IMG/VR virus record: IMGVR_UViG_3300042558_002668
Span: 16,139-80,138 of that record
Origin: a virus
DNA: 64,000 nt
Strand: one strand, 5' to 3'
Shown in pieces: positions 13,132 through 63,476 of this stretch. The notes beneath the pieces are model-generated. The model was not told where the DNA came from and made no database searches. It saw only the letters and a program-made list of their open reading frames with translations. The position numbers were made by a program, and so were the translations under genes. Within the stretch, counting starts at the first letter, position 1. Each line of letters begins with the position of its first letter.

Positions 13132-13646
13132 TTGTGTCCAGTAATCTGAAGAGTGTATCTAGGAGTAGTTCCTAGATTGGCTGCCAGGTGTGGTGTATCA
13201 TACGACCACTCAACAACATCTCCAGCACGCCAATTTATATAGGGTTTGCCATTGCCTTCAAAGTAATGCCCCGACTGCCAATCTTCTAGAAATATAATTG
13301 CTCTCCGAATTGACTGTTCTTGTCCTTGAAGATTAAACAAGTCAATATATTTCAGATATAAATCACTGTGCGTAGGAAGTATGGTGCCAGTGCCCATTCT
13401 GTAGTAACTTGTGCCAATATCTTTCCAGCCCAGTAATGTGTAAAAGTCAATAAAAAGATTGTTCCACTTTGGTTGCCGGCTACGCATATCACACATGTCA
13501 CCAGTAAACTTATTGGTGTATCCTAACGACAGCCAGTTTTCGAGACTGACCGAGTCGTTGAATGTTTCGTTGATATACTCTAAGTGTTTAAATTCATCAT
13601 CCCAAAAAGCAGGAATGTGATACTTAACTAACTCGTGTGTTGCCAT
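13128..13646 (-). CDS. 2-oxoglutarate/Fe(II) oxygenase-like cupin protein
   Basis: A 172-residue protein with a double-stranded beta-helix pattern. LPTHSDLYLKY carries an HxD metal-binding pair, YDTPHLAANLG the distal His, and PRYTLQITG the Arg expected to bind 2-oxoglutarate, as in aspartyl-beta-hydroxylase-like phage proteins. It would hydroxylate a small molecule, protein or nucleobase. It overlaps the dehydrogenase gene by 23 bases and the amidinotransferase by four. Substrate unknown; a second 2OG-like protein of different sequence is encoded at 49552. Confidence 0.7.
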   Translation of the reverse strand: MATHELVKYHIPAFWDDEFKHLEYINETFNDSVSLENWLSLGYTNKFTGDMCDMRSRQPKWNNLFIDFYTLLGWKDIGTSYYRMGTGTILPTHSDLYLKYIDLFNLQGQEQSIRRAIIFLEDWQSGHYFEGNGKPYINWRAGDVVEWSYDTPHLAANLGTTPRYTLQITGHK

Positions 13647-14874
13647 AATGAATCACAGTTATTCCTGGAATATTGGCAATTTTGCGCCAGGGGTCAACAA
13701 CAACTGATCCGGGTTTGATATCACAATACGGCTGGGTGTCTTCTTGATCACCGGTGTATTCGTAAGTGATTTTACGGTTGTGTGCCCAAAGAAACACAGC
13801 AGGAGTATCAACAGCAGTAACCACATCAGCAGGATCGTCAGCTAAAGGATCTACATATTTGACCTGTACTCCCAGTTGTTTGAGATAGTGTCCAACCAAA
13901 GTGCTGTAGCTGCCAATACAGTATGGCACATCGGGTTTGTAGGCTTTGCCGTGAATCACAATGGGCAAGATCTTTTGGTCCTGGGTGGCAGTGTCAAACA
14001 AAAATTTGGCAAGATTTTTTGCTTGAATTTCTCTAGCATGCATCACAGTATCAAATAGGTCGTAGCCGATGTCGTACTCTTGTGCCAGCCAACGCAGTGC
14101 AATGTTGTCACGTGGATGGCAAGCACCTGCATCGCCCATGCCAGCTGTCATGTACTTAGGCCCCATGATACGCATAGTACTACGAGCTAGTGCATCGGTT
14201 ACAACATCAACATTGATGTGACCAATTTTCATAGCAAAGTCTTGAATCATGTTGACCAAGCCAACCTTGGCGCTGATAAATGTGTTGTAGAATATTTTAA
14301 TGGCTTCGCATTCATCCCAGGTACCAATCTCATAGCGCGGATTGTTCTGCATTATGCTCTTGTAGATCTCCACAAGCTCGTTGGCCAATGCATTGGGATT
14401 GCCGTCCTCGGTTCCGATCATGATCATTTCTGGATTGACCATGTCCCACTTAACTGACCCCATGGCAATCAAATACGGATTGTATAAAAATTGATGTTTT
14501 TTATCCAACAATGGCACAAAGTGTTTCCGAGTAGTTCCGGGTAGTACAGTGCTGATCAGCACAATCTTCTTGGGAGTTGTTGCGTGGGCATTGATTTTCT
14601 CAATAGCATCTTTAACAGCATCATGTCCAAAGTCTTTTGGAGTCATGTGACTAGATGGAACACTGCCATCATACCCTTCTTGGTGTGGGGTTGGTACTGC
14701 TATAAAGATCCAATCACTGTTGTTTATGGTGTCTTCAATGCTGCAAACTTCTACCTGGTCACTTTGTCTTGGGTAAATATCATACCCGAAAACTTTATAT
14801 TTCTCTGCAAATACTTCTGCACAATCTAGGCCAAGTTTGCCAAGACCAATAAAACCCACTTTGATATCGTTCAT
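13624..14874 (-). CDS. UDP-glucose/GDP-mannose 6-dehydrogenase family protein
   Basis: A 416-residue enzyme. VGFIGLGKLGLDCAEVF (residues 6-22) is the NAD-binding Rossmann motif; ISTVLPGTTRKHF, LYNPYLIAMG and MGDAGACHPRDNIALRWL follow, the last with the catalytic Cys of UDP-sugar dehydrogenases. KAYKPDVPYCIGS and KYVDPLADD mark the C-terminal UDP-binding domain. It probably oxidises C6 of UDP-glucose or a related sugar to the uronic acid. It is the first gene of a long minus-strand operon down to 8000. Its ATG overlaps the ATG of the divergent plus-strand glycosyltransferase gene. Confidence 0.88.
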   Translation of the reverse strand: MNDIKVGFIGLGKLGLDCAEVFAEKYKVFGYDIYPRQSDQVEVCSIEDTINNSDWIFIAVPTPHQEGYDGSVPSSHMTPKDFGHDAVKDAIEKINAHATTPKKIVLISTVLPGTTRKHFVPLLDKKHQFLYNPYLIAMGSVKWDMVNPEMIMIGTEDGNPNALANELVEIYKSIMQNNPRYEIGTWDECEAIKIFYNTFISAKVGLVNMIQDFAMKIGHINVDVVTDALARSTMRIMGPKYMTAGMGDAGACHPRDNIALRWLAQEYDIGYDLFDTVMHAREIQAKNLAKFLFDTATQDQKILPIVIHGKAYKPDVPYCIGSYSTLVGHYLKQLGVQVKYVDPLADDPADVVTAVDTPAVFLWAHNRKITYEYTGDQEDTQPYCDIKPGSVVVDPWRKIANIPGITVIHYGNTRVS

Positions 14875-16189
14875 GAATGTTCCTCTTAATCAAATTTATA
14901 ACTACCTCGAAGGGCTCGTCGGAGTTAATAGTACATTAATTTATCGTTTTGATCCACCGGGTAGTAAAAAAATTGGCAGTCTAACTGGGTCTAAACCTGT
15001 TACCATACCCTGGACTGAATACCAACGACTTATTGTCACTGTAATGCACGATCAAGAGCCGTTGAATTTTGATTTGTACACTGAATCTAGCATTGGGTCT
15101 GAATTATTTCAATGGTTCCGCGATCATCGCAACGGTCAAGATGCATGGTTTACTTCCACTATGTATAACGAAATTTGCAATCGCAATCTTGGGTTTGTGT
15201 ATCATGGATCTACCACCTATGATCGAAACATCTTGGTACACAGTGAAAAACGCAGTACTGAATTGCAAAAGTACAGCAATATTGGGCTGGAGCCAGTGTA
15301 TTGGTGGAGTCATGCCCTAATTGCACGTGACTGGTACCGATATGCAGAAATAGATCCGTTGTTGTTGCAACTGCCCACCGATTACAAGTATGACTTTAAT
15401 GTCTACAATCGAGCTTGGTCTGGCACCCGAGAATATCGATTAAAATTTACTGATCTCGTAATTGACCAAGATTTAGTACACAATTGTAATATCGCATTTA
15501 ATCAATTTGACAACAATGTGCACTATCAGAACTATGAGCTATGCAACAAGGCGTTTGCCCCAGATCATGATTTAACAGTTTTGCCCAGCAATGCCGCTAG
15601 TTCAGCTTCTAGTGCAGATTACGATTGTTATGATTATTCAATCTCTTGGTTTGATGTGGTTCTAGAAACACTATTTGATGATCCAAGGCTTCATCTGACT
15701 GAAAAAATTCTGCGACCAATTGCATGTGGCAAACCATTTCTATTGGCTGCAACACACGGCAGCTTGCAGTATCTCAGGGACTATGGGTTCATGACGTTTG
15801 GTGACTTCATTGACGAATCGTATGATCTAATACAAGACCCAGTGCTTAGACTAAGAGCTCTAGTCGAGACCATGAAACAAATATCAGCACTGAGTCTTGC
15901 GCAAAAAAGATCACTAAAACAAAATATCAAACACATAACTCAGCATAACCGAGCTAGATTTTTCTCTCAAGACTTTTTCAATCAAGTCACTCAGGAATTT
16001 GTGCACAACCATCAACACGCACGTGAAATCTGCCAGAGCCACAATCTAGGCCAAAACTACGTTGATTATCGAAAAGTAGCAAAAACTGTGCCAGCCTTGC
16101 GTGATATACTAACCTCAGACGATCAATATCGTAGCCGGACTGATCTAGCAGTGCTGTTACAAGAAATACGAAAACACCAGGGACGTTAA
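14873..16189 (+). CDS. Putative glycosyltransferase of a phage-specific family
   Basis: A 438-residue protein. The N-terminal part has LIYRFDPPGSKKIG and VTVMHDQEPLNFDLY; the C-terminal part has HLTEKILRPIACGKPFLLAATHGSLQYLRDYGF, which looks like the nucleotide-sugar-binding region of GT-B enzymes, as in fucosyltransferase-type proteins. The ATG at 14873 overlaps the start of the divergent dehydrogenase gene and lacks a clear ribosome site. The neighbourhood of UDP-sugar dehydrogenase and amidinotransferases supports a role in glycan assembly. The assignment rests on local motifs and is moderate. Confidence 0.65.
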   Translation: MNVPLNQIYNYLEGLVGVNSTLIYRFDPPGSKKIGSLTGSKPVTIPWTEYQRLIVTVMHDQEPLNFDLYTESSIGSELFQWFRDHRNGQDAWFTSTMYNEICNRNLGFVYHGSTTYDRNILVHSEKRSTELQKYSNIGLEPVYWWSHALIARDWYRYAEIDPLLLQLPTDYKYDFNVYNRAWSGTREYRLKFTDLVIDQDLVHNCNIAFNQFDNNVHYQNYELCNKAFAPDHDLTVLPSNAASSASSADYDCYDYSISWFDVVLETLFDDPRLHLTEKILRPIACGKPFLLAATHGSLQYLRDYGFMTFGDFIDESYDLIQDPVLRLRALVETMKQISALSLAQKRSLKQNIKHITQHNRARFFSQDFFNQVTQEFVHNHQHAREICQSHNLGQNYVDYRKVAKTVPALRDILTSDDQYRSRTDLAVLLQEIRKHQGR

Positions 16190-30999: not shown

Positions 31000-31425
31000 T
31001 CAGCCTAGATGTTGATGTAAAATTGAACTATCCAGCTGGCGTTGGATGGTGAGTTGTGTGGATTCGATATTTAACACTACCCTGGGTGCCCAATTCATTA
31101 TATATTTCCCATGTTCAATTAGGACTAAATTATCAGTTTTTGTTTGAACAAGTGATGCGTGTATGTCTGTTAGGTTGTTAATCATCAACATAGTATACAG
31201 CATTCCAAGCCCGCGAGCAAGCTCACAATAGGTGTTGTCGGCCAATAGATCCCAGGGGCCGGGCCAGTTTTTGACCTCGTCCCATTTTAAATGTCTAGCA
31301 ACTATTGGTACGCGAAACCACCAGTCATTGATCACTGCCACTTGAGTTGCAATGTCAGCGGTGGCAAGATTAGTACGCAGTTGGTGCCAATCTGCCAACT
31401 GTTCTTCAAACGTGTTTGGCCACAT
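31000..31425 (-). CDS. Conserved phage protein
   Basis: A 141-residue protein starting MWPNTFEEQLADWHQLRTNLATADIAT, mostly helical, with WWFRVPIVARHLKWDEVKNWPGPWDLLADNTYCELARGLGMLYT. It shares a one-base junction with the tail-spike gene upstream. Proteins of this type occur next to fibre genes in T4-like cyanophages, where their role is unassigned; a chaperone or assembly role is possible. Confidence 0.7.
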   Translation of the reverse strand: MWPNTFEEQLADWHQLRTNLATADIATQVAVINDWWFRVPIVARHLKWDEVKNWPGPWDLLADNTYCELARGLGMLYTMLMINNLTDIHASLVQTKTDNLVLIEHGKYIMNWAPRVVLNIESTQLTIQRQLDSSILHQHLG

Positions 31426-32981
31426 TAGGATAGGTGTGAAATAGAGTAAGTTAAAGTTCCGTCTACACCAGTGTTAGATGATGTAAACAACACCGATATC
31501 TGATTTCCAGCTTGTGTAGCCGACAAAGTGATGCCGGTGCTAGAATTTTCAGTATAGTCGTCGTTGTAATTACCACCGTTGCCGGTCACGGTCAAAATAC
31601 CGTAACGAATATTGCTGTCGCGTTGAATAGAGTACTGCATTTGAAACGCCTTGGTATACAATTGATTAACAGATAAAATAGTCTGATTGACCACGTTGTT
31701 GACCAATGTGACTGTTTTACCTGTTTCTCTAGTGTATGCTCCCATCTGCAACTGAGTGCCACCCGACATGGTCTGCCCAGCTGTAATAATTTCTATTCGG
31801 GGGATTGTGTAGGCATCTGCATCTGATCTAGTGAACAAGTCATGCACCGACACATTGTTGTCATTGTTAAAGGTAATAACCGGTGATATTGGACCAGTGT
31901 TGCTGATACCAAAGCCTACATTGTTAAACGCATTATACGCCGACACGTTGAGATTGATATCTCCATATGAAATTGCTTCTGCGTAGATATTGTCAAACAC
32001 ATTGTGTAGTGCACGGAAGTTGCTGGGGTTGACGTCTAGTACAATGCCTTGATATAATATGTTAAACAAACTGTTGGACACAGTGATTCCGTACATGCCT
32101 GCGGTGGTGTTAAATGCATAAGTGGTATTAGTAAATCCGCATTTGTCAAATGTAATGTCAGTACAGGTTAACACTCCGTCGCTGGCGAATCTCACCGCAG
32201 CATTGTTTGGTAATGGGGTAATTCCTGAGTTCTCAACGTCTGTCAAGGACAAGGCACCAACAAAATACACACTGTCAAACCAACACTGCGATGCGCGATC
32301 AACTAGGAAAACATCAGTTGATTCAGCTGATTGAAAAGTCATTGAATTTATCTCAATGTGCTTTGGCGGCGTTGCTCCGTTGGTGCCAATGTTTACCCCA
32401 GTCTGTTGTAAACTATCACCATACTGTGCCACATACGCAGGTACACTGCTGTCTTGTGTGTCTAAATAAATGATTGAACAGTCGGCGCCTTCACCAATTA
32501 GTTTGGCATAGGTAGGAATTACAATGGGTGAACTGGTTCTATAAGTACCGGCTGGGAAAAACAAACTTCGACGAATCTGCGTATTGGTCTCTCGGCAATA
32601 CAATTGAAACAAGGCTCGGTTGATTGCCGCAGTGTCATCAGCTAGTCCGTCACCAATAGCACCAAAATCTCGCACACTAGCATAGTCATCCAGCGTGGCT
32701 TGTAGTGTACGCACAATCGGGCTTGATGGTGACTCGCCGGTTTGAGCCTCGTATCCCACTGCTATGTCTTTGTAGGTGTAATTGGTGAGAACTGTGATGT
32801 CTGAGAATTCAGTCAGTACCTCGGTGTTGCCAATAACCGGGGCACCATCTTGTAAGGTACCGTTACCAATGAATAGCTGGCGTGTGTCTAGGCACCAGCC
32901 CAATTCAGCGCCGGCCAACTGCGGCAGGTCTTCGGAGTACCCTTTTCTTTGCGTAATCTGGGAGATTTGTACTATAGCCAC
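31425..32981 (-). CDS. Pectin-lyase-fold tail fibre or spike protein
   Basis: A 518-residue protein. The N-terminal 60 residues (MAIVQISQITQRKGYSEDLPQ, AGAELGWCLDTRQLFIGNG) are an attachment domain common to T4-like cyanophage fibres. ASVRDFGAIGDGLADDTAAINRAL is the pectate-lyase-type opening of a right-handed beta-helix, followed by many parallel-strand repeats and a beta-rich C-terminal domain. It would bind, and perhaps degrade, host surface polysaccharide. Catalytic residues cannot be assigned. Confidence 0.82.
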   Translation of the reverse strand: MAIVQISQITQRKGYSEDLPQLAGAELGWCLDTRQLFIGNGTLQDGAPVIGNTEVLTEFSDITVLTNYTYKDIAVGYEAQTGESPSSPIVRTLQATLDDYASVRDFGAIGDGLADDTAAINRALFQLYCRETNTQIRRSLFFPAGTYRTSSPIVIPTYAKLIGEGADCSIIYLDTQDSSVPAYVAQYGDSLQQTGVNIGTNGATPPKHIEINSMTFQSAESTDVFLVDRASQCWFDSVYFVGALSLTDVENSGITPLPNNAAVRFASDGVLTCTDITFDKCGFTNTTYAFNTTAGMYGITVSNSLFNILYQGIVLDVNPSNFRALHNVFDNIYAEAISYGDINLNVSAYNAFNNVGFGISNTGPISPVITFNNDNNVSVHDLFTRSDADAYTIPRIEIITAGQTMSGGTQLQMGAYTRETGKTVTLVNNVVNQTILSVNQLYTKAFQMQYSIQRDSNIRYGILTVTGNGGNYNDDYTENSSTGITLSATQAGNQISVLFTSSNTGVDGTLTYSISHLS

Positions 32982-53284: not shown

Positions 53285-54313
53285 TTAGGCACTCTTCATG
53301 CAAGTTGTCTCAGCCATCAATCTCCACTTAGCAGGGAAGCTCTTGACCAAGTCTGCAATCTTGAGAGCCATACGCAAGCTCATCTCACGCAAGCGAGCCT
53401 GGTTGGTGTTCATGAACTCAATGATGTCATCTTGTTGCATCTCTGAAAAGTCATAGTCTTGGAACAGCACACCGTCCTTGGCAATCTGCTTGATACGCAG
53501 GATCTTGTCACGCATGGTGTCCAAGGTCAAGTCCAGATAGTGGCATCGGCTTTGCAATGCATCCAAGTGATCCCGCAATTTTTGCGACTTCATTTGATCA
53601 AACTTCAAGTTAGTGATAAAAATCACACTGCCTTTGAATTCAAATTGATCCGGGATGCCTTCGCGACGCAGAGTGCTGGACTCGCTCAACCAGGAGATCT
53701 TGCGCTTCTTGCCTGAGTCAAGAGCACCCTTGAGCAAGTTAAGAGCAACGTCATCCAGCAAGATGCTGTCGCAGTCATCAAACACCAGTACGCAATTGGC
53801 ATCTGAATACTTGTACAGTGTCTGGTACAAACCAATTGGGGTGGCACTGCCTTTAACAACCTCGGCACGCAGTCGTTTGCCACTCAGTTTGTCAAACAAA
53901 CAAGCTTTGTCAACTTCAGCTTCGACACCAAAACTCTTGCCCACACCAGGGGGGCCGCTCACAATCATGGCACGGATGTCACCTGCTGTGGCTGCTTTGG
54001 TCATCTCAGTAAGAATCTCAAATCGCTCACGGATCCGAGTCATTGCTTGCTCTTCAGTTTCTACTACCACTGGTTGTTTAACCTCTACAGTCTTGGGCTG
54101 GGCTGTCACAGTGTCTCCTCCAACAATTTCAATATCTTCAATGCCGTCAACACGCACACGCACCACGTCAAATTCGGGACCAAAATGCCCATCGCTTTGT
54201 ACAGTTACAAAGCCGCCGCGGGCGCCTTTTGTAAAATCTTTAACAAGAGTAAACGCAACACCACGCACGTTTTGATTGCGATAAGTGCCTTTGTGTATTA
54301 CAACTTGGGTCAT
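53285..54313 (-). CDS. AAA+ ATPase conserved in T4-like phages
   Basis: A 342-residue protein. An N-terminal beta domain (residues 1-80) precedes the ATPase: IVSGPPGVGKSFGVEAEV is Walker A, VLVFDDCDSILLDDVA Walker B, IFITNLKF sensor 1. The C-terminal part contains ARLREMSLRMALKIADLV. The protein recalls cyanophage early ATPases. Substrates are unknown; perhaps a remodelling factor. It is driven by a TTGACC-17-TATAAT promoter. Confidence 0.85.
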   Translation of the reverse strand: MTQVVIHKGTYRNQNVRGVAFTLVKDFTKGARGGFVTVQSDGHFGPEFDVVRVRVDGIEDIEIVGGDTVTAQPKTVEVKQPVVVETEEQAMTRIRERFEILTEMTKAATAGDIRAMIVSGPPGVGKSFGVEAEVDKACLFDKLSGKRLRAEVVKGSATPIGLYQTLYKYSDANCVLVFDDCDSILLDDVALNLLKGALDSGKKRKISWLSESSTLRREGIPDQFEFKGSVIFITNLKFDQMKSQKLRDHLDALQSRCHYLDLTLDTMRDKILRIKQIAKDGVLFQDYDFSEMQQDDIIEFMNTNQARLREMSLRMALKIADLVKSFPAKWRLMAETTCMKSA

Positions 54314-55487: not shown

Positions 55488-56216
55488 TTACAATCTCCAA
55501 TGTTGCAATATATATTTATCCTGAACTTCGTGTGGCTTAGGGGTTCCGTGAAACACAATAACCCGCACCTTGGGATCAATCCTGCAACCTGTACCGGGGC
55601 TGTGATATTTACGTGTTTTCATGTTTTGACCGCCGTCGTTCATTTGCCATCTCCAGCTTTGTATCATGTCTGCATCAAACAAATTGCGGTGACGCTCGTC
55701 AATCACAGCTGAAAGAAAATCCTGGTCCCCCGGGTATCGTGCAGTTACTGTAGATGGCCCTTGACTCATAAATGATTCCCAAACATTGCTAAATCTAGTG
55801 GTATCCCAAAGCATGACACTGGAGTTAATACCAGCCCAGGCAGGACGTTGCAGATACCTAAAATCACGAATAGTAGAAAAATGACTTGGGGGAGCTTGTA
55901 ACATCCAATCAATATTGCCAGTAATCACAACGTCAAGATCAAAATACAACAATTGGCCCGAAAAGTGATCAGGGTTAAACATCTGTATTTTGTACCACCA
56001 AGCACTTTTTGGTCCAGCTATGCCAGGCCAAGTGTCTAGCGTGTGCTTGATAAAAGGATCAGGAACCTCTCGTTCTTCTTCTGTGAATACATGCAGTTTT
56101 ACAGGAAACGTTAAATTTCGACACAGCATGGCATAAAGTTTTTGAACATACGTCCATTGATAAGCGTCACCATGAATCACACATGCACAGTTTACTGTAT
56201 AAGTTTGGTTTATCAT
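55488..56216 (-). CDS. GT8-like glycosyltransferase
   Basis: A 242-residue GT-A enzyme. LLYFDLDVVITGNIDWML carries the DxD-type motif (DLD); GPKSAWWYKIQMFNPDHF resembles the sugar-binding region; RYPGDQDFLSAVI and VIVFHGTPKPHE supply the later acidic and His residues. It probably transfers a hexose. It opens the glycan island and is divergent from the gene at 56259. Family level is clear, substrate not. Confidence 0.8.
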   Translation of the reverse strand: MINQTYTVNCACVIHGDAYQWTYVQKLYAMLCRNLTFPVKLHVFTEEEREVPDPFIKHTLDTWPGIAGPKSAWWYKIQMFNPDHFSGQLLYFDLDVVITGNIDWMLQAPPSHFSTIRDFRYLQRPAWAGINSSVMLWDTTRFSNVWESFMSQGPSTVTARYPGDQDFLSAVIDERHRNLFDADMIQSWRWQMNDGGQNMKTRKYHSPGTGCRIDPKVRVIVFHGTPKPHEVQDKYILQHWRL

Positions 56217-56245
56217 AAGGATTAATATTTACCGTTATGTACATA

Positions 56246-56253
56246 CATAAATA
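56246..56253 (+). promoter_or_regulatory. Late promoter CATAAATA, predicted leaderless start at 56259
   Basis: CATAAATA ends six bases before the ATG. In T4 late promoters the last A of TATAAATA is at -6, so transcription would begin at the A of the start codon. No ribosome site is present. Confidence 0.55.
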
Positions 56254-56258
56254 TCTTT

Positions 56259-57017
56259 ATGAAAATCGTACTTGTTACAGGTGGGTTTGATCCCATACAC
56301 TCCGGACATCTTGCTTACTTCCAGTCAGCAAAACAACTAGGTGACAAACTCATCGTTGGGCTCAATAGTGATGCCTGGCTAGAACGCAAGAAAGGTCGTG
56401 CGTTCATGCCCTGGTCAGAACGTGCTGCCATTGTTGCTGCCTTGCATGTGGTTGATCGTGTGATTGATTTTGACGACCAGGATGGCACAGCAATCGATGC
56501 TATTCGTAAAGCCAAAGAGATATTTCCCAATCATGAGATTGTGTTTGCCAATGGTGGAGACAGAACTCAAGACAACATACCCGAGATGGTGTTCGATGAT
56601 GTGGAATTTGTGTTTGGTGTGGGTGGAGAAGATAAGAAAAACAGTTCTAGCTGGATTCTTGAAGACTGGAAGAAACCCCGAACAGATCGCGCCTGGGGGT
56701 ACTATCGTGTGCTACACGAAGTAGGCGGCCACGTCAAGCTAAAAGAACTCACAGTAAATCCCAAGACATGTTTAAGCATGCAACGACACGAAAAACGTGC
56801 AGAGTTTTGGTTTGTAGCCGAGGGTGAAGCCACAGTGTACACAGTGGATCCACACAGCACAGATCGTGAGCTGGCATCAAGCCCTGCCCGGCATCAGTCA
56901 ACTTGGATTAGACTAAATGAATGGCACCAGTTGTGCAACGAAACTAACGAGCCGTTAAAGCTGATCGAAATCCAATATGGCGAAAATTGTGTTGAAGAGG
57001 ACATCGAACGCAAATGA
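56259..57017 (+). CDS. Bifunctional cytidylyltransferase / phosphomannose isomerase-type cupin
   Basis: A 252-residue fusion. Residues 1-135 are a nucleotidyltransferase with TGGFDPIHSGHLAY (HxGH) and MPWSERAAIVAALHVVDRV, as in RfaE and TagD. Residues 150-252 are a type II mannose-6-phosphate isomerase cupin with LSMQRHEKRAEFWFVAEG (His and Glu metal ligands) and EWHQLCNETNEPLKLIEIQYGENC. The combination suggests one protein that makes an activated sugar. It overlaps the next gene by four bases. Confidence 0.85.
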   Translation: MKIVLVTGGFDPIHSGHLAYFQSAKQLGDKLIVGLNSDAWLERKKGRAFMPWSERAAIVAALHVVDRVIDFDDQDGTAIDAIRKAKEIFPNHEIVFANGGDRTQDNIPEMVFDDVEFVFGVGGEDKKNSSSWILEDWKKPRTDRAWGYYRVLHEVGGHVKLKELTVNPKTCLSMQRHEKRAEFWFVAEGEATVYTVDPHSTDRELASSPARHQSTWIRLNEWHQLCNETNEPLKLIEIQYGENCVEEDIERK

Positions 57018-57694
57018 AGCCAATACCAGTGTTTGTTGGTTATGACCCCAGAGAGGCAGTGGCTTATCACACCTGCGCTAATTCAATTATACGGCAGGCA
57101 TCAAAACCAGTTGCAATAATTCCGTTGGCATTGAATCTGTTTGAGGACTACACAGAAACACACACTGACGGAAGCAATCAGTTTATCTACAGCAGATTTC
57201 TTGTGCCGCATCTAATGGACTATGCTGGGTGGGCTATCTTTATTGATGGCGACATGATAGTGCGCGACGACATTGTCAAGTTGTGGCAGTTACAAGATCC
57301 CATGCACGATGTCATGGTTGTTAAACACAATTACAAAACTCGAATGCCGGTAAAATATCTTGGCGCCAAGAATGAAGACTATCCACGTAAAAATTGGAGT
57401 AGTGTTATTTTGTGGAACTGCAACAGTGAGTCAAACAAACAACTCACTCCAGATTTTGTACAGCAGGCCACTGGTGCTGCATTACACCGGTTTACATGGT
57501 TAGAAGATCAGCATGTTGGTGAGTTGCCAGTGGAGTGGAATTGGTTACCTGATGAATACGGGCCAAACCCTGATGCCAAGCTCTTGCATTATACCCTGGG
57601 CACTCCATGCTTTCACGAGTTTGCCACTACGCCACAAGGTGATGAGTGGCACCGGGAGCACATGCTAGCCGATTATTGTTTACAAAAATCATGA
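57014..57694 (+). CDS. GT8-type glycosyltransferase
   Basis: A 226-residue GT-A enzyme. PVFVGYDPREAVAYHTCANSI is the typical N-terminal strand; WAIFIDGDMIVRDDI has the D-G-D metal motif; TWLEDQHVGELPVEWNWLPDEY contains the catalytic-site Gln/Asp region. It would add a hexose to a lipid- or protein-linked acceptor. ATGA overlap couples it with both neighbours. Acceptor unknown. Confidence 0.85.
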   Translation: MKPIPVFVGYDPREAVAYHTCANSIIRQASKPVAIIPLALNLFEDYTETHTDGSNQFIYSRFLVPHLMDYAGWAIFIDGDMIVRDDIVKLWQLQDPMHDVMVVKHNYKTRMPVKYLGAKNEDYPRKNWSSVILWNCNSESNKQLTPDFVQQATGAALHRFTWLEDQHVGELPVEWNWLPDEYGPNPDAKLLHYTLGTPCFHEFATTPQGDEWHREHMLADYCLQKS

Positions 57695-58632
57695 CTCAAC
57701 CGTTGTCAATTGTAGCCTACAGATCTTGTTTGCCATCAAAAAATAAAAAACAAGAAAAAGTTGATGCACTGATTAAATTCTGCCTGGGCGTACATGCCAA
57801 CGGGGACAATGCGTACATGCATGAAGGCCAGGACACAGTGCCATGCGATGTTGCAGTAATACTGGGATGGGTTCACGAGGATTCAAAAAATTCACCTCAC
57901 TTGCAAATGCGCAAAAGAGTGGCTGCTGAACAAGCGGCAAAAAATAAACATTTGGTCATAATTGACAGCAACTTATTTCTTTACAAAAATACCAAAAACC
58001 CATTGAACTATTTGCGTTATAGTTTCAATGGAGTTTTTCCCAACACTGGAATATACTGCGATTCTAATCCAACACTGGATCGATGGTTTGACTTTGAGTC
58101 ACAACTTGATTTAAAGTTGCAGCCTTATCGTGTCAACGGAAATCACATACTGTTGTGCTTGCAAAGGCAAGGTGGATGGAGCATGGGAGGGATTGATGTG
58201 CAGTCTTGGATTGCCAGCACTGTGTCTTCTATTCGTATGCACAGCAGTCGCCCCATTAGGTTACGAGCTCATCCAGGTGATAAAACTCAGCATGACTTTG
58301 GTCGAATAATTAATCAATTTCCCAATGTACATGTGTCCAGCCCAGGCAGTTCACTACTAGACGATCTAGCCAATTGCTGGGCTGTGGTCAATCACAATTC
58401 CAGTCCAGCAGTTGGTGCAGCCATTGAAGGTTATCCAATTTTTATCACCGACCCAGAACGCAGTCAATGCAAAGAAATTGCCAACACCGACTTTGCCAAA
58501 ATTGAAGATCCAGTGCTGTACGATCGACAACTGTGGCTAACCAGACTGTCAATGTTTCATTGGAATTTTAACGAGGTTCAGTCTGGGCAATGCTGGGCTC
58601 ACATGCGCCGTTACTTGCCCGGTATTCCATAA
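57691..58632 (+). CDS. KpsS-like glycosyltransferase (first copy)
   Basis: A 313-residue protein of a phage GT-B-like family. HILLCLQRQGGWSMGGIDVQ, RPIRLRAHPGDKT and CWAVVNHNSSPAVGAAIEGYPIF resemble KpsS/KpsC capsule proteins: a His in RAHPGD and the region NHNSSPAVGA near the nucleotide site. The start at 57691 was chosen for its ATGA overlap with the previous gene. It is paralogous to the protein at 60873. Donor and acceptor are unknown. Confidence 0.7.
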   Translation: MTQPLSIVAYRSCLPSKNKKQEKVDALIKFCLGVHANGDNAYMHEGQDTVPCDVAVILGWVHEDSKNSPHLQMRKRVAAEQAAKNKHLVIIDSNLFLYKNTKNPLNYLRYSFNGVFPNTGIYCDSNPTLDRWFDFESQLDLKLQPYRVNGNHILLCLQRQGGWSMGGIDVQSWIASTVSSIRMHSSRPIRLRAHPGDKTQHDFGRIINQFPNVHVSSPGSSLLDDLANCWAVVNHNSSPAVGAAIEGYPIFITDPERSQCKEIANTDFAKIEDPVLYDRQLWLTRLSMFHWNFNEVQSGQCWAHMRRYLPGIP

Positions 58633-59302
58633 AACGCAAGGCCCACTCATGCCGTGTTTGTCGCATGGCGTCAGACTTGTAGATCTTTTTTTGATATCTG
58701 CGATTTTGGTATGTGTCATCGCCGTTGTTGCCGGTAACGTCAAACCTATCATGTATGACATTTACCGGCAACTCTTTAACTGCTCCTGCTTCGTGACAAA
58801 TATCCTGTATCCACGAATCATTGCAGTTGCACAAACTCAATGTCCCAAATATGTCTATCCATGTGCGTGGGATAAAGGGAAATAAAGTTAATTTTTTATC
58901 AAAATTCGTAGTGGTCATGTGTAGCATGCCAACAAAGTCACTTTGTTCTGCCAAGCAAACATCCCAAGACTTGGTTTGCATCAACGCATCATCATTCCAA
59001 AGCAGTAGCCATTTGCCCTGTGCTTTGCTGGCCAACAAGTTGTAATAATTGTGCAATTCAATATAGCCCCAGGCTGGTGTTTCAAACACCTGTGTGCTTG
59101 CACCGTACCTGTTGATAAAATCTGTCCAGGCTGTTGAATTAAAATAATCTTTACTGGGCTGATCATCATGATCGTACGCAATTGATATCTCAATTGATGT
59201 GGGGTCAGCGGCACACTCTAACAATGTTTGCACACTGCGATTGACCAATTCCACTCTGTTTCGAGTGGGTAGCATAACTGTAACTAATGTATTTGATGTC
59301 AT
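58568..59302 (-). CDS. Family 2 glycosyltransferase
   Basis: A 244-residue GT-A enzyme. LVTVMLPTRNRVELVNRSVQTL is the nucleotide-binding opening; WLLLWNDDALMQTKSW has the DD motif; EAGAVKELPVNVIHDRFD follows. It lies antiparallel to the KpsS-like gene, overlapping its 3' end by 65 bases. The start at 59302 (ATG) is preferred over a GTG six codons upstream. Function: sugar transfer in the glycan island. Confidence 0.8.
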   Translation of the reverse strand: MTSNTLVTVMLPTRNRVELVNRSVQTLLECAADPTSIEISIAYDHDDQPSKDYFNSTAWTDFINRYGASTQVFETPAWGYIELHNYYNLLASKAQGKWLLLWNDDALMQTKSWDVCLAEQSDFVGMLHMTTTNFDKKLTLFPFIPRTWIDIFGTLSLCNCNDSWIQDICHEAGAVKELPVNVIHDRFDVTGNNGDDTYQNRRYQKKIYKSDAMRQTRHEWALRFMEYRASNGACEPSIAQTEPR

Positions 59303-59335
59303 GTTGTACTTAGTAACCACACCGGCAGTCTAGTC

Positions 59336-59343
59336 TATAAATA
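59336..59343 (+). promoter_or_regulatory. T4-type late promoter TATAAATA, predicted leaderless start at 59349
   Basis: A perfect TATAAATA ends six bases before the ATG, placing +1 on the A of the start codon, exactly as for the promoter at 56246. Both are followed by ATCT-type sequence and no ribosome site. Confidence 0.65.
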
Positions 59344-59348
59344 TCTAC

Positions 59349-60056
59349 ATGAACATTCCAGCATTTGTCATTGGCCTCAGCCAAATCCCAAGCTCAGCAG
59401 AGAGCTCTAAACGAGTAGTACAAGCTCTTGAAGATTTTGGAATTCATGCGCAACACTGGGAAGGCACATATGGCAACGATGCCATTGAATTGTTCAAGAG
59501 ACTTGGACGCGAAATCCAACCCACCAGCTTTAAAGGAAATCCAATTGATGCTGATTACATCAAATCATGTTCGCGTCCAGGGGTAATGGGCTGTTTCCAT
59601 AGCCACTACAGGTTGTGGCAACACTGTGTTGATCTTGATACAAATATATTAATTTTTGAAGATGATGTTATATTTGAGCGTGGGTTTGAACCAGTTGAGT
59701 GGACTGATGTATTGTTAGTTGCAACTGGCAAGAGTGTGCACACACATGAATTTTATTCTGAAAAATTATACTCTCCTAGTGGTGATCCAGCGGCTGTTGG
59801 TTTCAAGGGAAAAGTCATGCCGGGTGCTGTGGGCTACGGACTCACGCCTGCTGGCGCAACCAAATTGGTCACTCAATATTCACGCTATTATTTGCCCGCC
59901 GACAATGCCATGAATGCTACTGTGGTAGAACTGCAATGTCACAATTATCTAATGGGTAGAGCTGCCATTGACGTCGATGGCAAAAAAAGTCTTACCAAAA
60001 CCAGCATGTGGCATAAAATGCTCAAACGCTCTGCCAATACTGCTCAGTCCGGGTAA
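59349..60056 (+). CDS. GT25-like LPS glycosyltransferase
   Basis: A 235-residue enzyme with IPAFVIGLSQIPSSAESSKR, the family-25 opening; SRPGVMGCFHSHYRLWQHCVD; and ILIFEDDVIFERGF, the EDD motif of GT25 enzymes. GAVGYGLTPAGATKLV follows. GT25 enzymes include LPS galactosyltransferases. It converges on the gene at 60022, overlapping by 35 bases. Likely modifies an LPS or glycan acceptor. Confidence 0.83.
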   Translation: MNIPAFVIGLSQIPSSAESSKRVVQALEDFGIHAQHWEGTYGNDAIELFKRLGREIQPTSFKGNPIDADYIKSCSRPGVMGCFHSHYRLWQHCVDLDTNILIFEDDVIFERGFEPVEWTDVLLVATGKSVHTHEFYSEKLYSPSGDPAAVGFKGKVMPGAVGYGLTPAGATKLVTQYSRYYLPADNAMNATVVELQCHNYLMGRAAIDVDGKKSLTKTSMWHKMLKRSANTAQSG

Positions 60057-60834
60057 CTTTTAAATCCTTGGGTTTACTGTGGCCCAGTTGTTTTCTATCA
60101 CCTTTGAGGTGATCTAGGTATGCTCCCCAGGAAGTGTTGATCAAGGGATGGCCTTCACCCTGCACAATACCTTCACTCCAGTTGAGTTCCCGCACTGACA
60201 CCAAGGAACGCACATGGTCAAATACAAAACTATCATGCCATTCGTCAAGAGCAAATATATCTCCTTGGTCATACAGTGCTTGGAACTTTGCCAAGAACCG
60301 ACGGCCTGTGCTTGACCCAATATTGATTGCATATAATCCACATTCGGTGTACTTGCCAGTTCGTCCCAGAAAGCACAGATCATAATCGTTGCTGATCATT
60401 CGATTGAGATACTCAGTAGTGATCTCTGAGTGGCATACCATGTCGGCATCCATCCATATTAACCAGTCACTTTTGCAACACTGAGCTGCCGCAAAAATTG
60501 CATATACCTTGTGTGCAAATCTCACCGCATCCCATTTAAATCCTTTGCCAGCATCTCGTCGTTTTGAACGTACTGGGTCTGTTGATACATCACCGTTGGC
60601 CATGGGAACATGTTGCCACTTTTGTTTGAATGCACACAGTTCCGGACTGGCTTTTTCTAGATCAATTACCGCCAGGTTTGGCGCATGCTGTGTTACAACA
60701 CAATTTTCAGCATAGGCCAACATGTTTACATCCGATGGCCATGTGTTTAAAAATGTTTCAATCATGCGCTGACCGTAGTCTAGATATCCTTTATGATTGA
60801 AAGTGGTAACAACTGAAAATTTATGTTGACTCAT
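60022..60834 (-). CDS. GT-A glycosyltransferase-like protein
   Basis: A 270-residue protein starting MSQHKFSVVTTFNHKGYLDYGQRMIETFL, with DWLIWMDADMVCHSEI carrying the DxD motif. DLCFLGRTGKYTECGLYAINIGS follows. The start at 60834 was chosen since the next 33 codons upstream look like translated intergenic sequence. The gene diverges from that at 60873. Substrate unknown. Confidence 0.78.
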   Translation of the reverse strand: MSQHKFSVVTTFNHKGYLDYGQRMIETFLNTWPSDVNMLAYAENCVVTQHAPNLAVIDLEKASPELCAFKQKWQHVPMANGDVSTDPVRSKRRDAGKGFKWDAVRFAHKVYAIFAAAQCCKSDWLIWMDADMVCHSEITTEYLNRMISNDYDLCFLGRTGKYTECGLYAINIGSSTGRRFLAKFQALYDQGDIFALDEWHDSFVFDHVRSLVSVRELNWSEGIVQGEGHPLINTSWGAYLDHLKGDRKQLGHSKPKDLKVTRTEQYWQSV

Positions 60835-60872
60835 GCGTTTGCCTGTTAAGTATAATAAAGTATTTACACACA

Positions 60873-61712
60873 ATGAAATTCTCCATTTATAATAATTTTG
60901 GTGCTGGTAATAGTGCACCTGTGTTTGCCGCATTTGAGCAAGGATTAACTAGACTTGGGCACACAGTTACACATCACGACAACTCTGCAGATGTTGCTGT
61001 GATATGGAGTCAACTCTGGGCTGGCACCATGCAACAAAATCTCCCAGTATGGCAATTGTATCGCAATAGCAATCGACCAGTTGTGGTACTTGAAGTTGGG
61101 GCAATAAACCGTGGACATACCTGGAAAATATTGCCAAATGGTGTTAATCGCATTGTACTCAGTGGCAACAGCTCTAGTCGTAGTCAACAGTTGGGCATAA
61201 ACTCCTTGCCCTGGACCAACTCAGGAGAGCATGTGTTGATTGCGTTGCAGAGGCCAGAAAGCAATCAGTGGCACGGACAACCACAGATGCAATCTTGGCT
61301 AAACACTGTGGTGGATGAAATACAACAACACACTGATCGACCCATTGTGATCAGAAAGCATCCTAGATTTCGTGCTGTGACTATTCCCAGTGGATGTTCA
61401 GAGCAATTACCAACAAAAATTGCCAACACATACGACACGTTTGACTTTGATCAGTCACTGCGCAATGCCTGGGCAGTTGTTAACTGGAATAGCAATCCCG
61501 GTATTAATGCAGTGCTTAACGGAGTACCAGCCTTTGTTGGGCCTTCTAGTATTGCAGTGTCGGTGGCCAATACCAGCTTTGATAATCTTGACAATCCAGC
61601 AAGACCTGATCGAACACAATGGATTAATGATTTGGCTTGGACTGAATGGACTACTCACGAAATTGCCACTGGAGAACCAGTGGCAATTTACTTGTCCGAG
61701 ATCAACGATTAA
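60873..61712 (+). CDS. KpsS-like glycosyltransferase (second copy)
   Basis: A 279-residue protein related to the one at 57691: HVLIALQRPESNQWHGQPQMQ, RPIVIRKHPRFR and AWAVVNWNSNPGINAVLNGVPAF are the corresponding blocks. The N-terminal part (MKFSIYNNFGAGNSAPVFAAF) differs. The end overlaps the gene at 61709 convergently by four bases. No ribosome site is seen. Probably a GT-B glycosyltransferase acting on the same glycan as its paralogue. Confidence 0.7.
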   Translation: MKFSIYNNFGAGNSAPVFAAFEQGLTRLGHTVTHHDNSADVAVIWSQLWAGTMQQNLPVWQLYRNSNRPVVVLEVGAINRGHTWKILPNGVNRIVLSGNSSSRSQQLGINSLPWTNSGEHVLIALQRPESNQWHGQPQMQSWLNTVVDEIQQHTDRPIVIRKHPRFRAVTIPSGCSEQLPTKIANTYDTFDFDQSLRNAWAVVNWNSNPGINAVLNGVPAFVGPSSIAVSVANTSFDNLDNPARPDRTQWINDLAWTEWTTHEIATGEPVAIYLSEIND

Positions 61713-62161
61713 ACTTGAATGTCTTCCATGCCGGCTGTGCGTAGTCGAACCACATGCCCCATTTGCCATTGCTTGGTATCAAGACCTTTCATGATTCCCA
61801 ACCATTTGTTACGCAACAGTGCCACTTCGTTGATGATAGTTTCAAAGTCGATAACCTCATCCTCACCATCCACGTACTTTTCGGCGTCACGAGCAGTGAG
61901 TGCTCGTGCATAATTTTCTAAGTACTTTTGAAAATGGCGTCGACGGATTTTGCGTAGTTGTATGTTTAGGAGATTGAGTACTGCCTCAATCTCCTGTAAC
62001 TGGTTAAATCTATGTTCGGTAATACCAGGTAATGCTGTGATGTTGCGTTCAACCACACCGGAAATACGGCATTCGGATTTGGCAGACAATAGTTCTTTTT
62101 CGTAATGTGAGATAAAGTCTGGTATCGTCCCAAGGTCAGCAACCACACGGCTATACCACAT
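61709..62161 (-). CDS. Conserved T4-like phage protein beside uvsX
   Basis: A 150-residue helical protein starting MWYSRVVADLGTIPDFISHYEKELLSAKSECRISG and ending RTAGMEDIQV. The block LNIQLRKIRRRHFQKYLENYARALTARDAEKYVDGEDEVIDFE is very conserved in cyanophages in my memory. It is the third gene in the uvsX operon, so a mediator role such as UvsY is conceivable, but UvsY identity cannot be shown. TAATG couples it to the preceding gene. Confidence 0.75.
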   Translation of the reverse strand: MWYSRVVADLGTIPDFISHYEKELLSAKSECRISGVVERNITALPGITEHRFNQLQEIEAVLNLLNIQLRKIRRRHFQKYLENYARALTARDAEKYVDGEDEVIDFETIINEVALLRNKWLGIMKGLDTKQWQMGHVVRLRTAGMEDIQV

Positions 62162-62424
62162 TAGTTTTCCCAGTCTTCGTTTTCGTCGTAGTCTTCATCT
62201 ATGTCTTCGTCATCCTCTTCATCAAGGTCTTCACCATTGTCGAGATATGAAGCCAAGGCACGTTTGATGTCGCTATCGCCTTTAAAGGCATCACGAATGC
62301 CATCAGCGTCACTGTCGTTCTCCATTAGGATTTGAACCACAGTGTCTGCTGCCTCTGCGCGATCCACAGTATTGATATACCGTTTTAGTTCGCCCCAAAT
62401 TTCACTAGTTACACGTTCGCTCAT
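62161..62424 (-). CDS. Small acidic protein
   Basis: An 87-residue protein with a helical N-terminal half (MSERVTSEIWGELKRYINTVDRAEAADTVVQILMEND) and an extremely acidic tail (DLDEEDDEDIDEDYDENEDW). It overlaps uvsX by four bases. Acidic phage proteins of this type may mimic DNA or regulate the recombinase. Function unproven. Confidence 0.75.
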   Translation of the reverse strand: MSERVTSEIWGELKRYINTVDRAEAADTVVQILMENDSDADGIRDAFKGDSDIKRALASYLDNGEDLDEEDDEDIDEDYDENEDWEN

Positions 62425-63476
62425 TCAGCGTCCTCCTCCACGATACTTACCTCTTCCTTCTGATTTCCAAAATCGCTCATTACAGTATCCAGGCAAGCAT
62501 CATCATTGCGTTCCCAACCTTTGCGGAACTTCTTGATGATTTCGCCTTGGCTTGATGTGAACACTAGGCTATTGCCTTCTTTCTTGAGCAGGCCTTTTTT
62601 CTCAATCAAGTCTGTCAATCCCGAGTAAGGACTCATACCCGTAGTGTAAGGAATCTTGACCTGAACGCCTTCAAAAGGCTTGGCATAGCGTGTTTTCATA
62701 ACTTTACAGCCTGCACGGATACCGTTGACTTCAGAGACTTTGTTGCCGTCCTCGTCTTCTTTGAGCTTCATCTTTTTCATTGCTACCACGATACTGCTGG
62801 CGTAGATGAAACCTTGACCACCGGAGATCTTGTCATCAGGATCAAACATGTCCTGACTTGCGTATGTGTGGTTGGTACATACCAAGCCCACGTTATAGCT
62901 ACCAAACATGTTCACACAGTTACGCACCAAAGCGGTAAGTGCTTTGGGCTTGCGACCCAAGTCACCCTTCATTTCGCCTGCTTCAAACTGGTTGACGTCT
63001 GTGGGAGTCAACAACATACCCAGGCTGTCAATCACAAACAATACCTTGGGACGCTCGCCGTCTGCCAGTGCTTTGTAGTCACTCATAAATGTTGAAATTG
63101 TTTTAGCAACGTCATCAATCATGGCCATACTGAGTTTAAGAAGTTTGTCTGGACCTGTGTCAACCCCAAGTGCTTTGAGCCAGTCTTCATCCAGTGCGTT
63201 TTCACTGTCAATCAACACCACAAAGATACCTTGTTCTTGTGCGTGTTTAACAATGTTGCCTGAACAGATGTAGCTTTTGCCTGCACCCGAGTCACCAGCA
63301 AACACAGTGACTTTGCCCAAAGGAATGCCACGGTTAAAGTCGCCGCTGATCAAATAGTTTAAGGCAAAGTTGCCCGTGGAGATCCAGTCTGTCGGATCAT
63401 TAAAGCCAATACTAAGGCCTTCGATACTTTTTGTAATTTCCTTACGAAATTTACTTACGTCAAATGGTTTTCCCAT
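62421..63476 (-). CDS. uvsX: UvsX recombinase (T4 RecA-like)
   Basis: A 351-residue RecA-fold recombinase. VTVFAGDSGAGKSYICSGNI is Walker A; FVVLIDSENALDEDW and KVLFVIDSLGMLLTP give Walker B; VGLVCTNHTYASQDMF covers motif and loop L1; KISGGQGFIYASSIVVAMKK is the L2-like region. It forms filaments on single-stranded DNA and drives recombination-dependent replication. A terminator precedes it from the gp32 gene. SD AAGGAAC before the start. Confidence 0.96.
   Translation of the reverse strand: MGKPFDVSKFRKEITKSIEGLSIGFNDPTDWISTGNFALNYLISGDFNRGIPLGKVTVFAGDSGAGKSYICSGNIVKHAQEQGIFVVLIDSENALDEDWLKALGVDTGPDKLLKLSMAMIDDVAKTISTFMSDYKALADGERPKVLFVIDSLGMLLTPTDVNQFEAGEMKGDLGRKPKALTALVRNCVNMFGSYNVGLVCTNHTYASQDMFDPDDKISGGQGFIYASSIVVAMKKMKLKEDEDGNKVSEVNGIRAGCKVMKTRYAKPFEGVQVKIPYTTGMSPYSGLTDLIEKKGLLKKEGNSLVFTSSQGEIIKKFRKGWERNDDACLDTVMSDFGNQKEEVSIVEEDAE

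Follow-up and report, generated by a model that had tools for sequence, protein, structure and literature searches.

Eight genes, designated g1 to g8, form an island on both strands at positions 55488–61712 of a 64,000-nucleotide stretch of viral DNA (the window), which spans positions 16,139 to 80,138 of the 80,138-base IMG/VR virus record IMGVR_UViG_3300042558_002668. The virus is a jumbo T4-superfamily phage infecting aquatic bacteria. An initial annotation, made from the sequence alone, had read the eight genes as a glycan-synthesis island that includes a sugar-activating fusion protein, and in outline this was right. All eight open reading frames (ORFs) are present at those coordinates on the two strands. 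Our subject is the fusion gene, g2 (56259–57017, + strand), whose 252-residue product carries a HIGH-superfamily nucleotidyltransferase (residues 1–137) followed by a type II phosphomannose isomerase (PMI) cupin (residues 141–251). IMG/VR was searched with this gene and the best 80 of 571 related stretches were retrieved; results for IMG/VR relatives rest on these. Across dozens of IMG/VR contigs, g2 and the adjacent g3 form a fixed pair, both at ~80% identity. The genes g1, g4, g7 and g8 recur on a similar scale, and g5 and g6 are variable, occurring in few relatives. Because g2 and g3 are so well conserved and the other four recur, we consider the island ORFs to be true genes; conservation of g1–g4, g7 and g8 rules out chance or mis-called ORFs.

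The nucleotidyltransferase of g2 matches PF01467 (4.6e-14; 53.2 bits against a cut-off of 21), with H14-S-G-H17 (the HxGH signature, in phages), N98-GGDR and S129SSWI invariant. The cupin matches PF01050 (5.3e-21; 75.4 bits against a gathering cut-off of 23.6), and its Q/H/R/E/W/H set (Q-x-H, R-x-E and a later H), along with a C-terminal E-x-D-I-x-R motif, is unchanged in all the type II PMI cupins aligned, from phages, bacteria and a Pseudomonas phage record. This domain order, with the cupin C-terminal to a nucleotidyltransferase, is that of AlgA/ManC, whose net role, the supply of GDP-mannose, is also the one proposed below for g2. However, the AlgA/ManC model (TIGR01479) matches g2 in the cupin part only (positions 358–460; 62.8 bits against a cut-off of 372.95), and this comparison revealed no NTP_transferase-type guanylyltransferase domain; the corresponding half of g2 is instead a HIGH-superfamily Rossmann domain (PF01467), and AlgA/ManC, at ~470 residues, is much the longer protein. 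In the AlphaFold model of g2, most of the cupin half, with its narrow alignment, had a predicted local distance difference test (pLDDT) score below 50, and the nucleotidyltransferase half alone was interpreted. Among solved structures, that half is most closely related in both sequence and fold to glycerol-3-phosphate cytidylyltransferase (GCT) and HldC, yet g2 scores below the equivalog cut-off of the HldE/HldC model (TIGR02199; 75.1 against 181.5 bits) and below that of the glycerol-3-phosphate cytidylyltransferase model (TIGR01518; 48.2 against 165.4 bits). Thus, although g2 does join an HxGH nucleotidyltransferase to a PMI cupin as initially annotated, “cytidylyltransferase” is here the name of a superfamily only, and the nucleotide that it implies is probably wrong. 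As g2 misses the cut-offs for the two named families by so wide a margin, its genomic context was examined.

Homologues in bacteria, some of them abundant in the ocean, rule out the fusion as a phage-specific novelty. A scan of genome contigs identified the full-length fusion, at 50–55% identity, in SAR11, SAR86 and other bacteria, with more distant copies in candidate-phylum bacteria, and the nucleotidyltransferase without the cupin in gut alphaproteobacteria, Elusimicrobia and others. In one locus (L155), the two halves are split into neighbouring genes, in the order PMI cupin, nucleotidyltransferase, GDP-mannose 4,6-dehydratase (GMD) and a GDP-fucose-synthase-like gene. The full-length fusion was found in none of the isolate phage records searched; the cyanophages S-SSM7 and P-TIM68 have, near uvsX, the nucleotidyltransferase domain without the cupin, at 51–55% identity to g2 (L082:14983-15447 and L083:9986-10447). 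A search of the open-access literature returned nothing relevant on such a fusion or on replacement of ManC. Some sequences filed under bacterial metagenome-assembled genomes (L084, L086, L094, L128 and L132) resemble mis-binned phage contigs; among them, the 335-kb contig L094 carries the same glycan island, with g2 and g3-like, g4-like, g7-like and g8-like genes co-oriented.

The nucleotidyltransferase gene, fused or alone, lies near GMD in 12 of 80 bacterial loci, and the ManC motif was found in none of the 80. In one genome (G044), the gene ends ~15 bp before GMD, and no PF00483 NTP_transferase was found anywhere in that genome. Among 46 genomes with the nucleotidyltransferase gene, GMD scored above its curated cut-off in 19, of which 17, G044 among them, were without a ManC guanylyltransferase domain. 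A control set of 115 alphaproteobacterial genomes was searched for the nucleotidyltransferase, for GMD and for ManC: ManC was present in none of the five GMD-positive carriers, versus 39 of the 44 GMD-positive non-carriers (Fisher p = 1.3e-4, a value that ignores kinship among the carriers). An attempted replicate in Elusimicrobiota, where just two of 120 genomes had the gene, provided too few for a test. Among the phage relatives, nine (L022, L029, L031, L046, L056, L069, L070, L072 and L073) have a GMD-like gene, with GMD by far its best-scoring model, between g8 and f3, the gene at the island border. The bacterial distribution of the fusion and the evidence that it displaces ManC go beyond what had been annotated.

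This context points to GDP-mannose. We infer, with a probability of roughly 55%, that g2 combines a PMI with a HIGH-superfamily mannose-1-phosphate guanylyltransferase that displaces ManC, and that it yields GDP-mannose for a mannose-containing or mannose-derived glycan. The cupin would convert fructose-6-phosphate to mannose-6-phosphate, a host phosphomannomutase would convert this to mannose-1-phosphate, and the HIGH domain would then couple mannose-1-phosphate to a nucleotide, with GTP as the likeliest donor. Assembly of the glycan, on either the virion or the host surface, would fall to g3 and the variable transferases (g1, g4–g8). Manno-configured sugar-1-phosphate chemistry has a precedent in HldC and the C-terminal domain of HldE, which share the HIGH superfamily and HxGH signature with g2. 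The earlier suggestion that the fusion makes an activated sugar in one step does not hold, since its two activities (fructose-6-phosphate to mannose-6-phosphate, and sugar-1-phosphate to nucleotide sugar) are not consecutive but have a mutase between them. A search of eight phage records for an enzyme of this middle step yielded no PGM/PMM-family gene; the host would therefore supply mannose-1-phosphate. The phage may in this way provide its own building block, GDP-mannose, for a surface glycan. More broadly, the nucleotidyltransferase would found an unrecognised class of guanylyltransferase that replaces ManC in SAR11, SAR86, gut alphaproteobacteria, Elusimicrobia, some candidate-phylum bacteria and jumbo phages, with the fusion as a convergent re-invention of AlgA; to this wider proposal we give even odds. 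If true, it would fill a missing step, the source of GDP-mannose in SAR11, SAR86 and related bacteria that have no ManC, and the HIGH superfamily would gain one sugar and one base. It would also mean that widespread jumbo phages carry their own sugar activation, the supply step staying fixed while the transferases of the glycan diversify.

Several observations weigh against a GDP-mannose role. To our knowledge, no HIGH-superfamily enzyme uses GTP or mannose-1-phosphate, the known members using ATP or CTP, and HldE and HldC take the beta-anomer of heptose-1-phosphate. The bacterial carriers are mostly draft genomes without completeness data and may be phylogenetically clustered, and some GMD-positive carriers encode NTP_transferases of 230–240 or ~350 residues, possibly including an atypical guanylyltransferase. 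In SAR11, the fusion gene lies between polA and a major facilitator superfamily (MFS) transporter gene, outside any glycan cluster. GMD is absent from the island of the window itself, and the GMD-like short-chain dehydrogenase/reductase (SDR) of two phage relatives (L031 and L069) scores 393.6 and 387.5 bits with TIGR01472, just under the equivalog cut-off of 415 (next model, 116). Finally, a GmhA-like SIS protein is encoded near two of the 80 loci (L133 and L140), which is compatible with a heptose pathway.

That last observation bears on an alternative that we consider unlikely, in which g2 is a heptose enzyme making ADP- (or GDP-) D-glycero-manno-heptose, as HldE/HldC do, with the cupin serving as a sugar-phosphate isomerase of that pathway. 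The best NCBIfam matches of the nucleotidyltransferase are indeed rfaE_dom_II (5e-21) and HldE, the PHROG that it matches (7878) is named heptose adenylyltransferase, and HldC is among the closest folds. However, in addition to the wide shortfall against the HldE cut-off (75 versus 181.5 bits), the partner domain is a mannose rather than a heptose isomerase, with its residues intact; a heptose kinase motif was found near none of the 80 loci; and what recurs alongside is GMD, with full equivalog scores, instead of heptose genes. It is likewise doubtful that g2 is a true cytidylyltransferase-type enzyme whose product, a CDP- or ADP-activated mannose or polyol, is used only by the dedicated transferases g3 and g4. 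Among solved structures, CTP enzymes (GCT, ECT and CCT) come closest in both sequence and fold, with TagD, a glycerol-3-phosphate cytidylyltransferase (1coz, 2b7l), as the top structural match, but identity to TagD is 25–30% and no teichoic-acid context was seen around g2. A CTP enzyme would also leave the adjacency of GMD and the absence of ManC from GMD-positive genomes unexplained, and its model is missed by a wide margin (48 versus 165 bits). Both the HldE-like and the GCT-like alternatives have less support than GDP-mannose.

The remaining island genes bear out the initial assignment of GT2, GT8, GT25 and other GT-A enzymes. The GT8-like glycosyltransferase g3 (57014–57694, + strand; 226 residues; PF01501/GT8, 5.9e-7, 29.8 bits against a cut-off of 24.3) begins within the stop of g2 (ATGA) in the window, retains 73–84% identity in relatives with D78-G-D80 invariant, and has WbbM (E = 7.6e-6) as its sole credible relative in the PDB. 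At the island edge, g1 (55488–56216, − strand; 242 residues) encodes a GT-A-type glycosyltransferase (PHROG 1962, glycosyltransferase, 2.7e-27) with 45–55% identity in 22 representatives and an invariant D93-L-D95. The variable genes encode a GT2-like glycosyltransferase (g5; 58568–59320, − strand; 250 residues; PHROG 14945, glycosyltransferase, 2.1e-8) and a GT25-family glycosyltransferase (g6; 59349–60056, + strand; 235 residues), the latter matching PF01755 at 2.4e-16 and 60.7 bits (cut-off 24) with a best stretch of only 37 positions. A GT2/GT-A glycosyltransferase of ~270 residues is encoded by g7 (60022–60834, − strand; PF00535/GT2, 6.7e-6), at 50–65% identity in relatives. The ORF call for g7 (60022–60933) places its start at 60933, overlapping g8; since the proteins of relatives begin near residue 38, sequence comparison suggests that the true start is probably Met34, at ~60834, which would abolish the overlap.

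The two proteins initially described as KpsS-like paralogues, g4 (57691–58632, + strand; 313 residues), which overlaps the stop of g3, and g8 (60873–61712, + strand; 279 residues; 31–52% identity in relatives), are paralogues (hhalign of the two families: probability 100, E = 2.6e-38), but neither has a convincing family match at the sequence level in Pfam, PHROGs or NCBIfam. The resemblance instead comes from structure prediction for g4: its AlphaFold model (pLDDT 89.7) appears similar in overall fold to the retaining 3-deoxy-D-manno-octulosonic acid (Kdo) transferases KpsC (8fux/6mgc), WbbB (5fa1) and KrkA (9yfx), the best Foldseek matches (E = 2e-9 to 1e-6), at 10–15% identity and TM-scores of 0.42–0.56. 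No PDB sequence match of g4 to KpsC/KpsS-type Kdo transferases was found. We therefore describe g4 as a glycosyltransferase-like protein of predicted KpsC/WbbB fold, and g8 as its paralogue of KpsC/KpsS fold. Mean column identity in relatives is 48–54% for g4 and g8, 56% for g1 and 62% for g7.

The sugar-activating step and one transferase are thus constant while the others diversify, a pattern that would be expected of a surface-exposed glycan, and glycosylation of the virion or host surface is likelier than glycosylation of DNA. Phage-encoded transferases glycosylate virion proteins of mycobacteriophages, according to Freeman et al. 2023 as cited in PMC12619734, and this provides a model for one possible target of the island. 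Adjacent homologues of g3 and g4 also occur in Caulobacter phage CcrColossus and Pelagibacter phage Mosig, where, as in the other isolate records, no full-length fusion was found. That the island modifies phage DNA is improbable: phage glycosyltransferases often act on DNA (PMC12619734) and the island adjoins uvsX, but six phage records, a 343-kb contig among them, yielded no gene of the thymidylate-synthase/hydroxymethylase family, which weakens this explanation. The varying transferase content and KpsC-fold members resemble surface-polysaccharide loci, and the g3 and g4 homologues of CcrColossus are flanked by a tail gene on one side and the lysis genes on the other. The activated sugar may also be consumed by a nucleotide-sugar 6-dehydrogenase encoded in the window at a distance from the island (13624–14874, − strand; PF03721/PF00984; TIGR03026, 141.7 bits, below the cut-off), a 57%-identical homologue of which directly precedes the fusion gene, overlapping its start, in L086 (659–1885).

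In IMG/VR relatives with long enough contigs, the island site has f3/uvsX on one side and an AAA ATPase gene on the other, and most island genes recur there. The uvsX/RecA-like gene (62421–63476, − strand), with 67% identity to Sinorhizobium phage Phosso and 64% to Agrobacterium phage Atu_ph07, both jumbo phages, is a fixed flank and marks the lineage as jumbo T4-superfamily. On that side, the border is formed by f3 (61709–62161, − strand; 150 residues), which adjoins uvsX in relatives and retains 76–89% identity; the other fixed flank is f1, the AAA ATPase (53285–54313, − strand; PHROG 1250, 3.1e-86; 58–89% identity in relatives), next to which g1 stays in relatives. The Moraphages (PMC12619734) were considered as the lineage and set aside: the text mentions neither mannose nor Agrobacterium/Rak2-like relatives, their predicted hosts are Bacteroidota, and identity with them is neither shown nor assumed.

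The orientation of the g2–g8 block (56259–61712 in the window) relative to f3/uvsX and g1/f1 differs by lineage, with L006–L018 and L032 on one side and L019, L031 and L056 on the other. Phase-variable inversion of the island was considered and rejected, as no inverted repeat was found at the block ends in the window. Two relatives (L057:9600-10045 and L077:5078-5870) have an extra T at codon 10 of g2 (GGN TTT TGA), such that the frame opened by the ATG terminates and the rest of the fusion is encoded in the +1 frame. The site has a UUUU-GA context resembling the prfB frameshift site, and the candidate explanations are true frameshifting, disruption of the gene and a sequencing error common to both. 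The same two relatives have an HNH homing-endonuclease ORF, or a remnant of one, between f3 and g2, just upstream of g2. The wider window also encodes replication, nucleotide and tail-spike genes; these include a tail-spike-like protein (31425–32981, − strand) with pectate-lyase-like and Mtd N-terminal matches, and a protein resembling a phosphate-transporter subunit (PHROG 5385) is encoded at 1532–2536 (− strand).

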